Shown piece after piece: positions 25,679 to 42,075 of a stretch of DNA of 64,000 nt; position 1 is the first letter of the stretch, and each line of letters begins with the position of its first letter. Position numbers and translations under genes: made by a program. The notes under the pieces were generated by a model. It was not told where the DNA came from. It was given only the letters and a program-made list of their open reading frames with translations, and did no database searches. Source of the DNA: Maribacter sp. MJ134 (GTDB lineage: Bacteria; Bacteroidota; Bacteroidia; Flavobacteriales; Flavobacteriaceae); the NCBI RefSeq assembly GCF_003970695.1, contig NZ_CP034570.1, positions 3,286,001-3,350,000 on the forward strand, in the 5' to 3' direction.

Positions 25679-26270
25679 TTCTTCCATTACCATTTAGGAT
25701 TCTGTCTATAATAAATTAGGTGTAACAAACGGGTGTTTAAAGGGACAAGTTCAAAAGACAAAAAAATATTCCCTTAAAGTCTCATTCGTGGTCTCTTTTA
25801 GTAGTTTCTTTAATTGGGCTAACTAGACCATTTTCAGTAGGGGAAGCAGTAAGGAAAGGTTCTAAAAGAATTCAATCAAGATTGTATATGTCATCAATCT
25901 TAGCTTGGATTTGAAAAAGTTCGGTAGAAGCAAGAGGATAACACGCCAAAGCGATGTTATTTATTGTAAAACAATGACAATCAATGTGTTAATATTTTTT
26001 CATCACTAATTTTACTTGATTTTTTCGTAAAAAACCTTCGCAGCTCCTGTTTTACAGTTAATTTTTTAGTAAAAAAGGCAATTCAAGATGTGTCATTGTC
26101 ATGACAATCTTGCTTTGCTCCCGATGGTTGCAAAGGAAAATTAGAACTTAAAACAAGATAAATAGATGCGCCCTATTTCGATTTCACTTAACGCTTATCT
26201 ATCGGAACACTATGAAATCGAAACAGGAACCATGCGCAGTTAAGTTAGGGTAAGATTTGGGATGATTCTA
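25679..26270. other. Gene-free stretch with a perfect 14-bp palindrome
   Basis: No credible ORF or RNA is seen in these 592 bp between the AraC gene and the integrase. ATTGTCATGACAAT at 26095-26108 is a perfect palindrome, and a related ACAATGACAAT occurs near 25973. AT-rich sequence surrounds them. Function unknown. Confidence 0.5.
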
Positions 26271-27527
26271 CTAAGCAACAATGCGTTCGTTGGCTTCATC
26301 TAAAGTGGAGTTATCAAAACGTTTCAAGTAAATTTCAGTAGTTTTTAAGGAACTATGCCCCAAACCTTCACTGATTATTGCCGTCGATATTCCCATAAAC
26401 TTAGCAATTGTCGCCCAAGAATGACGAATAGAATAGGTTGTAAAGTGCTGTTTAATTCCTGCGTCTAGCGCGATAATTTTTAGTCTTTCGTTTACCCTTC
26501 TTCTTATAGTTTTATACTTCTCATATTTAGCTGTACTGCCATCGTAATTTGCAGGGAATAGAAAATCTTCTTCTGATTTATCTATTAAATAATGAGTTAA
26601 AATTTCTTTTAACTCGGAAGTGAGTTTTACTGATAATGGGTCACCAGTTTTACTTCTTCCATAGAATATTCTATCCTCACGTACATTTGATTTTTTAAGC
26701 TTAACCAAGTCTATCAAATTCATTTCTCTGCAATTAAACATTATCAGAGCATAGTTTTTCGTATGCCACAGCGCAGAGTTCTTTTCATATTTTAATTTGC
26801 GAATGTTTAGGAAGTCTTCTTTAGAAATCGCTCTCTTCTTTGTTTGATTTGAAGATGGAATCTTGTAGCGATGGAAGGGATTCTTAGCTACTTCAATTCT
26901 ATCTTCATTTATAGCTGCGTTATATATTGCTCTGATAGCTCTTAAAACTGAACTTATGCTATTTGGTTTTAGACCTTTTGATTCTTTTTCTATTTGAAAA
27001 TCTTTGAGCATACTTACATTTAGTTGGTCCAATCTCAAATCTTGATTGTTATTGAATTTTATAAAAGCTTTTATCCCATTGAGATACCATTCGGCTGAGC
27101 TTGGTTTGTTTGTTTTTAGTTTTCTGTCAACAATGACTTGACCCCAAACTTTTAGAGTTAATCCGTTTGACAGTTTACCTTTGAGCGATGGGCTTATCTG
27201 TTCCTCCCATTTATCTTTGATTTCTGTTACTAGAGTATCAATGTCCATATATTGAATAGCATCTCCGAGTTCATTTATCAAGCTTCGCGCAACATGAAGT
27301 TTGTCATATAGAATTTGGTTGATTTTGGAACAATCTATATTTTTATTTACAAGAACAGAGCGTTTCAGACAGAATGAATTTACATCCCATCCATTTTTTG
27401 AAGTTTCATAAGGCAATCGAATGATTCTTGGTTTTATATGGAAAACGCGCAAAGCAATCGGATACAATTCGGAAATTGCATTTTTCGAGGATTTTCGAGT
27501 ATCTAATATGAGTCTAACTTTAGCCAT
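26271..27527 (-). CDS. Tyrosine recombinase (integrase) of the second island
   Basis: A protein of about 418 aa with arm-binding, core-binding and catalytic domains. The catalytic part shows RHSWAT, LGHSSLKTT and the tyrosine in EIYLKRF. As in the other integrase, box I (FNCREMNLIDLVKL) does not match the canonical spacing well. The ATG at 27527 (MAKVRLIL) is preferred to the GTG at 27533. It sits about 170 bp from the right tRNA fragment and is similar in layout but clearly different in sequence from the first integrase, though both appear to use the same tRNA gene. Confidence 0.9.
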   Translation of the reverse strand: MAKVRLILDTRKSSKNAISELYPIALRVFHIKPRIIRLPYETSKNGWDVNSFCLKRSVLVNKNIDCSKINQILYDKLHVARSLINELGDAIQYMDIDTLVTEIKDKWEEQISPSLKGKLSNGLTLKVWGQVIVDRKLKTNKPSSAEWYLNGIKAFIKFNNNQDLRLDQLNVSMLKDFQIEKESKGLKPNSISSVLRAIRAIYNAAINEDRIEVAKNPFHRYKIPSSNQTKKRAISKEDFLNIRKLKYEKNSALWHTKNYALIMFNCREMNLIDLVKLKKSNVREDRIFYGRSKTGDPLSVKLTSELKEILTHYLIDKSEEDFLFPANYDGSTAKYEKYKTIRRRVNERLKIIALDAGIKQHFTTYSIRHSWATIAKFMGISTAIISEGLGHSSLKTTEIYLKRFDNSTLDEANERIVA

Positions 27528-27564
27528 TTTCACCCCTTAAACTACTTCAAGTTAGGAATAAAAA

Positions 27565-38682: not shown

Positions 38683-39291
38683 ATGGCTTTTGAATTACCA
38701 AAACTGCCTTATGCATATGATGCTTTAGAACCGCATATTGATGCAAGGACAATGGAAATACATCATACGAAACATCATAACGGATATACTACTAAGTTGA
38801 ACGGTGCAATAGAAGGCACGGATTTGGAGGGTAAATCTATTGAAGATATCTTGTCTAGCTTAGACATGGGTAATGGTGCCGTACGCAATAATGGTGGCGG
38901 TTTTTACAATCACTCTCTTTTTTGGAGCGTTATGTCCCCTAACGGAGGAGGTGCTCCCTCAGGAGAACTTTCAGATGCAATAAATAGTGCGTTTGGTTCT
39001 TTTGATGGATTTAAAGAAAAATTCAGCACTGCCGCAGGTACTAGATTTGGCTCGGGATGGGCATGGTTATGTGTACACAAGGGAGGTAGATTAGAGATTT
39101 GCTCTAGCCCTAACCAGGACAACCCTTTAATGCCAAATGTTGGCTGTGGAGGTCAACCAATTCTTGGTTTAGACGTTTGGGAGCATGCTTATTACCTAAA
39201 CTACCAGAACAGAAGACCAGACTATGTAAGTGCTTTTTTCAACGTTATCGATTGGAAAAAAGTAGCTGAACTATATGCTGCAGGGAAGTAA
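38683..39291 (+). CDS. Superoxide dismutase (Fe/Mn family)
   Basis: A 202-aa cytoplasmic enzyme that converts superoxide to oxygen and hydrogen peroxide. All four metal ligands are present: H27, H77, D164 and H168 in DVWEHAYYL. Sequence alone does not tell iron from manganese use. It has its own promoter and terminator and stands alone. Confidence 0.96.
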
Positions 39292-39330
39292 AATACGTTA
39301 GGAAAATTCTTGTTAAATAGAAGACTGACA

Positions 39331-39366
39331 ACCACTTAGAGAGAAATCTTTAGGTGGTTTTTTTTG
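39331..39366 (+). terminator. Terminator after the superoxide dismutase gene
   Basis: An 11-bp stem with wobbles (ACCACTTAGAG and TCTTTAGGTGGT) followed by a run of eight or more T, 40 bp after the stop. Confidence 0.8.
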
Positions 39367-39380
39367 ATTTTTACGCATAG

Positions 39381-39450
39381 AAAAGGGCGGAGAAGTCTCC
39401 ACCCTTTTCGTCCCAAATCTTACCATAAACTTAACCTACTTATGCTATGG
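39381..39450 (-). ncRNA. Tandem small RNA candidate, copy A
   Basis: On the minus strand a 40-nt block (39411-39450, starting CCATAGCATAAG) runs into a terminator hairpin (39381-39409). The stem GGGUGGAG/CUCCGCCC includes one U-G pair that exists only in the minus-strand RNA. The block differs from the others at two places (TTTATGG for TTCATGG and GGGA for GGGG). A box one base off consensus, TAGTATTG, lies directly upstream. I do not recognise the RNA family. Confidence 0.7.
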
Positions 39451-39588
39451 CAATACTAAATTACTGGTATTGTGGGAAATAAAAAAAGAAATTTTAAGAA
39501 ATTTTTAATTATAACCTCATTAAGTAGATTGCTTAAGGAACATTGATGAGAATTAAAAAACGGGTCCGTTTTTAAAATGTGGTCAAAT

Positions 39589-39659
39589 AAAAAAGGCAGA
39601 GCACAGCTCTACCTTTTTTCCCCAAATCTTACCATGAACTTAACCTACTTATGCTATGG
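39589..39659 (-). ncRNA. Tandem small RNA candidate, copy B
   Basis: Conserved block at 39620-39659, terminator at 39589-39619. The stem GGUAGAGC/GCUCUGCC has a U-G pair on the minus strand only. Upstream is an exact -7 box, TACATTTG, ending 5 nt before the block, so the RNA would start about at the block's first base and be about 70 nt long. The upstream 50 bp are also duplicated before copy C. Confidence 0.75.
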
Positions 39660-39796
39660 TTCTTCAAATGTATAAGCTTTAAGTCTTGTGAAAAAAGGTA
39701 TTTGTTTAAAGTCTTATTTTAAGGTTGAAATACCTTCTGTGTATTATTGTCTTACAGAAGACGAAAGAAGTTGTTCGCGTATTAAATAAAGAGCAA

Positions 39797-39865
39797 TAAA
39801 AAGGCGGAGCATTGCCCCGCCTTTTCCCCAAATCTTACCATGAACTTAACCTACTTATGCTATGG
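39797..39865 (-). ncRNA. Tandem small RNA candidate, copy C
   Basis: Conserved block at 39826-39865, terminator at 39797-39825 with stem GGCGGGGC/GCUCCGCC, which has a G-U pair on the minus strand only. An exact -7 box, TACCTTTG, ends 5 nt before the block. The stem sequence differs from copies A, B and D while pairing is kept. Confidence 0.75.
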
Positions 39866-39999
39866 TTCTTCAAAGGTATGAGCTTTAAGTCTTGTGAAAA
39901 AAGGTATTTGTTTAAAGTACAATTTCTAGGTTGAAAGGTATAGGAGGAGTTATCCATGTGAGGTTATCCTAATCTTTCAGAGCTTACATTATATCAAAT

Positions 40000-40070
40000 A
40001 AAAAAGGTGGAGAGTTCTCCACCTTTTTTGCCCCAAATCTTACCATGAACTTAACCTACTTATGCTATGG
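40000..40070 (-). ncRNA. Tandem small RNA candidate, copy D
   Basis: Conserved block at 40031-40070, terminator at 40000-40029 with a perfect stem GGTGGAGA/TCTCCACC and a run of six T. The upstream box is weaker (TATTTTAG). It lies 107 bp after the purF stop on the same strand, so it could also be reached by read-through from purF, acting as the purF terminator. Confidence 0.7.
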
Positions 40071-40176
40071 CAAGCTCTAAAATAGAATTGCTCCGGTCAA
40101 AAAGACTATTCCATCGATAAACGACAATTTTTATCGATGAAATACATTAAAATTAGATATTTTCTTACTAAAAAGC

Positions 40177-42075
40177 TTAATACGCTCTTTCGTTTTTACC
40201 TTCGTAAAAGTTGATAAAAGCCTTGTTTACCACCCTGTTTCCTCCAGGGGTGGGATAGTTTCCCGTAAAGTACCAATCTCCTAAATTTTTTGGACAGGCC
40301 TTATGTAAATTTGATATGGTCTGGTAAATTATTTGAACTTCGGCATTGATACCTTTTGGGCTAAGAAGTTCTCCAGTTTTCTTCGATATTTGTTCAGCCG
40401 AAAATGGGGCGTAGAATTGCTTTACGTAATTAATTACGTCTTTATCCTTGGAGTTAATTTGCTCAACACATTTTTTATAAATATCGTCGACTATGTGCAT
40501 GGTATTATTGTCCTTATGGAGGTCTAGCGCAGCTCTAAAGGCAATAAAGTCTTCTAGTTTGGCCATGTCTATACCATAACAGTCTGGATATCTGATCTGT
40601 GGAGCAGAGGAGACTACTATTATTTTTTTAGGAGAAAGACGGTCAAGGATACGAAGTATGCTTTTCTTTAACGTGGTGCCTCTAACAATACTATCATCTA
40701 TGATGACCAAATTATCACCTTTCTTTACAGACCCATAGGAAATGTCGTATACGTGGGCTACAAGGTCATCTCTACTGTCATCTTGCGTGATAAAGGTTCT
40801 TAATTTAGCGTCTTTAATAGCTACTTTTTCAATTCTTGGTCTTACCTCAAGTATATCATGGAGTTCCTTACTGGTAATTTTGGAGCCTATGGCAAGAATC
40901 TGTTCTTCTTTCTTTTTGTTAAGATAGTTCTGCGCTTCTTTAACCATACCAAAGAAAGATGTTTCTGCGGTGTTCGGAATATAGGAGAATACCGTTCTCT
41001 TTATATCATGGTTAATAGACTTTAAGATTTGCGGAAAAACCAACTTGCCCAGTTTCTTTCGTTCTTGGTAAATCTCCTTATCGCTACCTCTAGAAAAATA
41101 GATTCGCTCAAAAGAACACGCCTTTCTTTCCTTAGGTTCTAATATTTGTTTTATGGCCGTTGTGCCACTTTTCTTAACGATTATAGCGTGTCCGGGGTCC
41201 AGTTCTTGAACACTTTCATAAGGCACGTTGAATACGGTCTGTATAGCAGGACGCTCAGAAGCCACTACAACAATCTCATCGTCCTTATAATAATATGCAG
41301 GCCTTATACCTGCGGGGTCACGAAGCACAAAGGCGTCACCATGTCCAAGTAGACCGGCCATGGCATAGCCACCGTCAAAATTTTTGGCAGCTCTCCTCAA
41401 TATTTTGGAAACTTTTAAGCGTTCTGCTATAATGGCGGAAGCTTCTTGTTTTGTATAGCCCTGCTTTTTTATTTCCTTATATAGTTTGGCAACGGCATCA
41501 TCTAAAAAGTGGCCTATCTTTTCCATTACGGTAACGGTGTCCGCCATTTCCTTAGGGTGCTGCCCTAACTGTACCAAATTATCGAACAGTTCATGAACAT
41601 TGGTCATGTTAAAATTACCTGCAACGATAAGGTTACGATGCATCCAATTGTTCTGTCTTAAAAACGGATGTACACTTTCTATACTATTTTTACCAAAAGT
41701 TCCATAGCGTACGTGACCTAAGAGTAACTCGCCAATATAGGGTATATTCTTTTTTTGTAACGCTACATCATCTTCATATTCTGGATGTTCCTTAAGCTCC
41801 TTGTTTATACGCTCATTTATTTGAGCAAAGATATCTTGTATGGGTTGTTGTTGGCAAGAACGAACCCTACTCATATAACGTTGCCCTGCATCTACATCTA
41901 ACTTAATGCTAGCAAAACCTGCACCATCCTGACCGCGATTGTGCTGTTTTTCCATCATGAGGTACATTTTATTTACACCATAAAACGCGGACCCATATTT
42001 TTCCTTGTAATATTCAAGGGGCTTAAGCAATCGGATTACAGAGATGCCACACTCGTGCTTAATAGCGTCACTCAT
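40177..42075 (-). CDS. purF: Amidophosphoribosyltransferase-family protein (PurF-like, long form)
   Basis: A 632-aa two-domain enzyme: N-terminal class II glutamine amidotransferase with the nucleophile C9 (a short propeptide MSDAIKHE would be removed) and QHNRGQDGAG near 44, then a phosphoribosyltransferase domain with the PRPP motif VIIDDSIVRGTT (near 453). It makes phosphoribosylamine, the first step of purine synthesis. It is longer than usual PurF (about 500 aa), with extra segments, notably about 80-105 and after 520. Bacteroidota carry such a long form, sometimes beside a standard one, so the exact role is less sure than the family. Confidence 0.85.
   Translation of the reverse strand: MSDAIKHECGISVIRLLKPLEYYKEKYGSAFYGVNKMYLMMEKQHNRGQDGAGFASIKLDVDAGQRYMSRVRSCQQQPIQDIFAQINERINKELKEHPEYEDDVALQKKNIPYIGELLLGHVRYGTFGKNSIESVHPFLRQNNWMHRNLIVAGNFNMTNVHELFDNLVQLGQHPKEMADTVTVMEKIGHFLDDAVAKLYKEIKKQGYTKQEASAIIAERLKVSKILRRAAKNFDGGYAMAGLLGHGDAFVLRDPAGIRPAYYYKDDEIVVVASERPAIQTVFNVPYESVQELDPGHAIIVKKSGTTAIKQILEPKERKACSFERIYFSRGSDKEIYQERKKLGKLVFPQILKSINHDIKRTVFSYIPNTAETSFFGMVKEAQNYLNKKKEEQILAIGSKITSKELHDILEVRPRIEKVAIKDAKLRTFITQDDSRDDLVAHVYDISYGSVKKGDNLVIIDDSIVRGTTLKKSILRILDRLSPKKIIVVSSAPQIRYPDCYGIDMAKLEDFIAFRAALDLHKDNNTMHIVDDIYKKCVEQINSKDKDVINYVKQFYAPFSAEQISKKTGELLSPKGINAEVQIIYQTISNLHKACPKNLGDWYFTGNYPTPGGNRVVNKAFINFYEGKNERAY

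Follow-up and report, generated by a model that had tools for sequence, protein, structure and literature searches.

A tandem array of putative sibling small RNA genes between purF and sodA in Maribacter and other Flavobacteriaceae

In the available excerpts of the literature, trans-acting small RNAs (sRNAs) of Bacteroidota are little known beyond Bacteroides. The Bacteroides FopS family has 12–15 copies per genome, a 5′ part that is single-stranded and bears the R1 seed, and RbpB as its RRM protein (PMC11697453, accessible in part). In Flavobacterium psychrophilum, 85 new RNAs have been reported, and some Rfp RNAs are conserved outside the species (PMC9723704, accessible in part). The LhrC family of Listeria, as portrayed in the excerpts, is a multicopy sRNA family that shows LisRK-dependent induction under envelope stress and regulates mRNAs.

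The locus analysed here belongs to a 64,000-nucleotide stretch of the Maribacter sp. MJ134 genome (contig NZ_CP034570.1, positions 3,286,001 to 3,350,000), referred to as the window. The gap between sodA and purF contains four minus-strand units (A–D), each composed of a 40-nt block followed by a 12–13 bp hairpin and a T run (Table 1). What is new is a short RNA that is nearly unchanged in many Flavobacteriaceae genera, stands in tandem at one place and has no Rfam match. In a literature search that covered mainly freely accessible journals, no description of the array was recognised. That the units are RNA genes is well supported, and we lean towards the reading that the array encodes independently transcribed, partly redundant sibling sRNAs acting by base-pairing.

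The initial annotation had placed four units at a spacing of 203–208 bp. The four units are present, and the spacing is slightly different, with start-to-start distances of 209, 206 and 205 bp. The 40-nt block is conserved as had been described, 38 of its 40 positions being the same in A, B, C and D. A search of the 4.0-Mb own genome with a 23-mer at ≤3 mismatches gave exactly these four copies (control, 0). The upstream flanking gene, which has a glutamine amidotransferase domain and is taken to be purF, encodes a protein with 91% identity to its Maribacter sedimenticola counterpart. Compared with three hand-picked relatives, the units have an identity of 0.95 (284 nt), the 80 nt upstream of each 0.58 (320 nt) and the remaining gap 0.40 (281 nt). 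A stretch of the unit RNA, CCATAGCATAAGTAGG, could serve as a probe target.

Table 1. Features in and around the array. Positions are those of the window; bit scores refer to the covariance model R1.
Feature	Position	Strand	Remarks
Fe/Mn superoxide dismutase gene (sodA), downstream convergent flank	38683-39291	+	Sod_Fe_N, Sod_Fe_C
Terminator-like hairpin 3′ of superoxide dismutase gene	39330-39359	+	Terminator scan
Unit A	39381-39451	-	sodA-proximal; T for C at block position 24; 91.6 bits
-7 box of A	39456-39463	-	TAATTTAG
Unit B	39590-39660	-	82.8 bits
-7 box of B	39665-39672	-	TACATTTG, exact TAnnTTTG
Direct repeat upstream of B	39704-39730	-	TTTCAACC ... CTTTAAAC
Unit C	39797-39866	-	74.3 bits
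-7 box of C	39871-39878	-	TACCTTTG, exact TAnnTTTG
Direct repeat upstream of C	39910-39936	-	TTTCAACC ... CTTTAAAC
Unit D	40000-40071	-	purF-proximal; 5′ hairpin, linker, terminator; 96.1 bits
-7 box of D	40077-40084	-	TATTTTAG
Direct repeat upstream of D	40114-40142	-	TTTCATCGA ... GTTTATCGA, 20 bp period
purF-like gene, upstream flank	40177-42075	-	Glutamine amidotransferase domain (Pfam)

The four terminator stems quoted in the initial annotation, which differ between copies, are all present, and each closes a 12–13 bp hairpin in the predicted minus-strand fold. In agreement with the same source, the G–U pairs of A, B and C, read from the sequence, form on the minus strand only. The predicted folds of the units have z values of -3.1 to -4.0 against 200 dinucleotide shuffles, with 0, 0, 0 and 1 shuffles folding as well. 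A strict terminator scan listed 6 sites versus 0.6 in shuffles; among the units, it listed only C and D on the minus strand, the terminators of A and B being seen in the folds instead. Across 47 units (46 distinct), 94.0% of the cells of the terminator helix are paired, and both sides have changed at 6 of its 14 pairs. The double-change cells number 56 versus 22.2 in shuffles, and none of 500 shuffles is as high, while the number of pairs with a double change (6) is not above shuffles (mean 5.2; 176 of 500). This covariation of the terminator helix supports the earlier proposal of separate minus-strand small-RNA genes of about 70 nt with covarying terminators.

The block had been thought to be unpaired, which the predicted fold contradicts. 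Block positions 0–29 are placed in a 5′ hairpin whose loop contains GUAGG, and the single-stranded part of the block is the linker only (GAUUUGGGG, also given as UAAGAUUUGGGG), which reads UAGAUUUGGGG in other genera. The fold with GUAGG in the loop is predicted for 99 of 108 distinct 5′ stretches; among the 108 are some false matches in sodA coding sequence. The 5′ helix is 99.6% paired across the 47 units with zero double changes, and in 15 diverged 5′ domains a double change occurs at 2 of 7 predicted pairs, with a covariation term near zero. Because double changes are absent or few and this term is near zero, covariation is weak and does not prove the modelled 5′ hairpin, which is nevertheless likely to be real.

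The promoter regions provide further features of independent genes. As the initial annotation had stated, B and C share a duplicated promoter segment; it is part of a 115-nt stretch with 94% identity and has an exact TAnnTTTG box at a distance of 5 nt from the block. This motif is given as the -7 consensus of Bacteroidota in the accessible part of PMC7366714. Of 282 units, 235 have a TAnnTTnG box no more than 22 nt ahead of the block, 205 of them exactly at -13, compared with 17 of 282 for a control stretch, and a purine stands directly before the block in 282 of 283 units. The array thus holds several near-identical short RNA genes, each with a promoter-like box and a terminator, which is the pattern looked for in sibling sRNAs. 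Each unit would start at the purine directly before CCATAGC and yield an RNA of about 70 nt, consisting of the 5′ hairpin with its GUAGG loop, the single-stranded linker and the intrinsic terminator.

Farther upstream, a direct repeat is seen by eye before B, C and D and is absent before A. A TTnnnC half-site repeated 20 bp apart (within 2 nt) occurs in 160 of 254 units, versus 0–16 at nine control offsets. These direct repeats of 20-bp period, which are common in the family, are likely a regulator site, and a LytTR-type protein is a possible regulator. Such a regulator would drive B, C and D together, with A under another promoter.

The position of the units, directly downstream of purF and on the same strand, is also what would be expected if they were not independent genes, being either pieces of a long purF 3′ RNA or a short leaderless coding mRNA. 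Each unit has its own promoter-like box and terminator, and units remain intact in four arrays that are spread over 0.8–3.8 kb. Since a promoter-like box stands before most units and the units are intact when spread, read-through from purF is unlikely. The linker carries a one-nt indel (162 versus 92 of 259 units), which shifts any frame, so that the coding reading was rejected. Dependence of the units on purF or on translation is very improbable.

The covariance search of Flavobacteriaceae that had been suggested found relatives in many genomes. Model R1 was built from 47 hand-chosen units out of 66 extracted, the terminator of unit C being one column out of register in the alignment. R1 matches above 39 bits were confined to the own family, Flavobacteriaceae, in samples of 296 and 247 genomes. 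At E ≤ 0.001, 49 of the 296 genomes of the order sample match, comprising 40 from the own family whose best match is ≥71 bits, two of the own family with weak matches (34.8 and 32.1 bits) and seven of other families at ≤38.5 bits. The class sample has matches in 15 of 247 genomes, five from the own family and ten from others at ≤37.1 bits. Outside the family, matches scoring 30–38 bits were regarded as chance, a minority of them after individual inspection. The weak match of 32.1 bits (genome G419) sits between purF and sodA and is real, and R1 therefore misses or underscores diverged members; the one of 34.8 bits (G463) has neither purF nor sodA nearby. At least eight Flavobacteriaceae genomes among those listed gave no R1 match, and these may represent losses or diverged units missed by strict filters; a further 227 genomes lacking a match stand outside this listing. 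A 20-mer at ≤3 mismatches is present in 162 of 199 family genomes (reversed control, 93 of 199), and at least two same-strand matches in 126 of 199 versus 19 of 199. One genome (G138) has 13 such matches (4 forward, 9 reverse; ≤3 mismatches) versus 1 in the control, and perhaps contains many dispersed copies.

The genomic setting of the array is highly uniform. Named loci were collected by an exact 27-mer match, which gave at least 118 stretches; the 80 titled loci among the matches listed are, judging by their names, Flavobacteriaceae, except for two (L078 and L113) that carry higher-rank names only. Both flanks are in view at 77 of the 118 loci listed, and in all 77 the units follow purF, which has the same orientation, and are followed by sodA in convergent orientation. 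The other listed loci show purF only (21), sodA only (15) or neither (5), and no other arrangement. Among these five, L037 has its unit in the middle of the locus and is a true exception; L022 is likewise without purF or sodA, and the two are possibly moved arrays. The 77 listed loci contain one (19), two (21), three (19), four (12), five (5) or six (1) copies per array, and the median unit spacing is 207 nt (142 intervals among the matches listed). Moreover, 49 of 58 multi-copy arrays among the matches listed carry C at block position 24 in the copy next to purF and T in the copy next to sodA, the remaining arrays being C/C (6), T/T (2) and A/C (1). This split in the sequences suggests an ancient division into two classes of paralogues. 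Across the 1.45 Mb of loci retrieved, the linker occurs only once outside the arrays, in a unit cut by the locus end.

The preferred reading of sibling sRNAs takes the units to be expressed and the linker, the loop or both, as natural pairing sites, to pair in trans with mRNAs, presumably without Hfq. Hfq was not found in the own genome (control positive in 5 of 14 genomes), nor was RRM_1 (Bacteroides control; positive in 2 of 14 genomes). Complements of the block near start codons, which the initial annotation had proposed to search for, did not point to targets: the own genome has 35 matches, four of them the units, versus 23 for the reversed control, and an ATG stands at a judged real start in 3 of 30 loci inspected. 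Targeting of SusC-type mRNAs, which FopS represses at the start codon, received no support, as the start regions of 11 SusC genes showed no stronger pairing than 355 others (means of -14.2 versus -15.0 kcal/mol, with start codons being first-ATG guesses). For SusC and other start regions alike, pairing with the sRNA is somewhat stronger than with its 60 shuffled versions (z about -2.5). Pairing in cis to sodA or purF mRNA was discarded, with 6 of 30 and 15 of 30 shuffles being as good.

That no mRNA target stood out in the SusC, sodA and purF tests agrees with a second reading, in which the units are protein-binding RNAs. CsrB and 6S RNA are models of such RNAs, which act as decoys or cofactors; here, the hairpin with the GUAGG loop and the linker would form the protein site, and extra copies would add dosage. 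Both hairpin arms, the loop and the linker are nearly invariant in most units, and this near-invariance over 40 nt, hairpin arms included, exceeds the need of a short seed and would suit a protein site. However, the invariance is partly due to ascertainment, because the loci were fetched by exact match, and Hfq and RRM_1, the two RNA-binding families searched, were not found in the own genome. We therefore regard a protein-binding role as a possible but rather unlikely explanation. Under the base-pairing reading, Hfq-independent RNA regulation could be tested in a group of major polysaccharide degraders, and one deletion removes every copy, making the array an easy genetic target.

A part of the block also recurs beside mobile elements. 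The linker with its 5′ flank (ATGGTAAGATTTGGG) has three exact own-genome copies outside the array, and two loci have exact copies next to genes for tyrosine recombinases; one of these loci also adjoins a Pfam-confirmed relaxase gene. A one-mismatch copy (26247-26261) is located in the window directly beyond the stop codon of a minus-strand gene for a tyrosine recombinase (26271-27533). At ≤2 mismatches the linker has 26 own-genome matches versus 13 for the control, so that only close matches mean much. Of 45 exact linker matches in 15 other genomes, 40 are array units (control, 0). The five outside arrays all carry the one-nt linker variant found in the resident sRNA; three lie by GCGC-closed hairpins and putative mobilization genes and two are intergenic, one of which (L297) looks like a degenerate version of the entire block. 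Further linker copies are found in a repeated recombinase locus (L244, L300). The recurring stretch comprises 18–24 nt of the 3′ hairpin arm and the linker, and in four own-genome cases the recombinase mRNA would carry the linker complement after its stop codon.

This recurrence could reflect common ancestry, a targeting relationship or a site that acts as DNA. If the block were a DNA site for recombination or transfer common to mobile elements, with transcription being secondary, its presence beside tyrosine recombinases, and once beside the confirmed relaxase gene, would be explained. But the promoter box, the terminator and the strand-specific G–U pairs mark RNA genes, and the four spread arrays have no recombinase in their gaps; we consider a DNA site improbable. 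Pairing of this core-genome sRNA array with mobile elements is about as doubtful and would, if true, give the array the role of a host-side brake on integration and transfer, or of a cue for them. A viral origin was discarded, as no exact match occurs in viral contigs, and no plasmid match was found for one mobile element.

Several other observations concern the surroundings of these copies. In the window, a long GCGC-closed hairpin followed by GTTAAGTTAGGGTAAGATTTGGG (26167-26262, plus strand) abuts the 3′ end of the tyrosine recombinase gene, and similar hairpin elements occur elsewhere, at three positions of the own genome (49474, 3232526 and 3234213) and three times in two other genomes. 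The linker complement is situated between the stop codon and a terminator-like hairpin of a fasciclin gene (L246/L301), of a DUF3078 gene (L258, two mismatches) and of a large ORF in genome G034 (L293). In addition, the own genome contains seven TTGGTAAGATT(T/C)GGG sites about 7.1–8.5 kb apart around the contig ends, and the loci with such sites (L244, L245, L249–L251, L261, L262 and L300) carry a tyrosine recombinase and putative YD-repeat-like ORFs. Ahead of these sites stands CTTCATAGTATTAGTT, a sequence similar to the 5′ part of FopS.

The initial statement that no named family fits agrees with the Rfam search, in which no family reached its gathering score; weak scores for STnc40 and sraA are far below gathering and were taken as terminator matches. 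We also considered a place for the array on a distant branch of FopS, the Bacteroides family RF04319. Both are multicopy, about 70 nt long and terminator-bearing, and they share the short resemblance TTCATRGTA(TT)AGATTT. The best unit, however, scores 21.1 bits in the FopS covariance model against a gathering score of 56, and none of 21 relatives matches this model at E ≤ 0.001, while the Bacteroides control is positive. The resemblance is matched by 408 of 2000 shuffles of the FopS 5′ part for the main form and by 76 of 2000, a marginal value, for the closest copy. The 5′ hairpin and the tandem layout differ as well, and RRM_1 was not found in the own genome. Membership was thus rejected on score, 5′ structure and RRM-1 partner, and a distant kinship is extremely unlikely.

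Within the sources available in excerpt, FopS is nonetheless the nearest named family of the phylum found, with the likeness that both are multicopy siblings of about 70 nt in Bacteroidota that end in a terminator; the 5′ part is single-stranded in FopS, whereas a 5′ hairpin is predicted for the units here. The Rfp RNAs are alike in being sRNAs of the same bacterial family, Flavobacteriaceae. Rfp18 pairs through its third stem-loop according to the accessible part of PMC9723704, and the units here, which have two, are set apart from it by this description; another F. psychrophilum Rfp RNA could be the array RNA. The LhrC family shares the multicopy organization of an sRNA; its host is unrelated, and it offers a functional parallel only.
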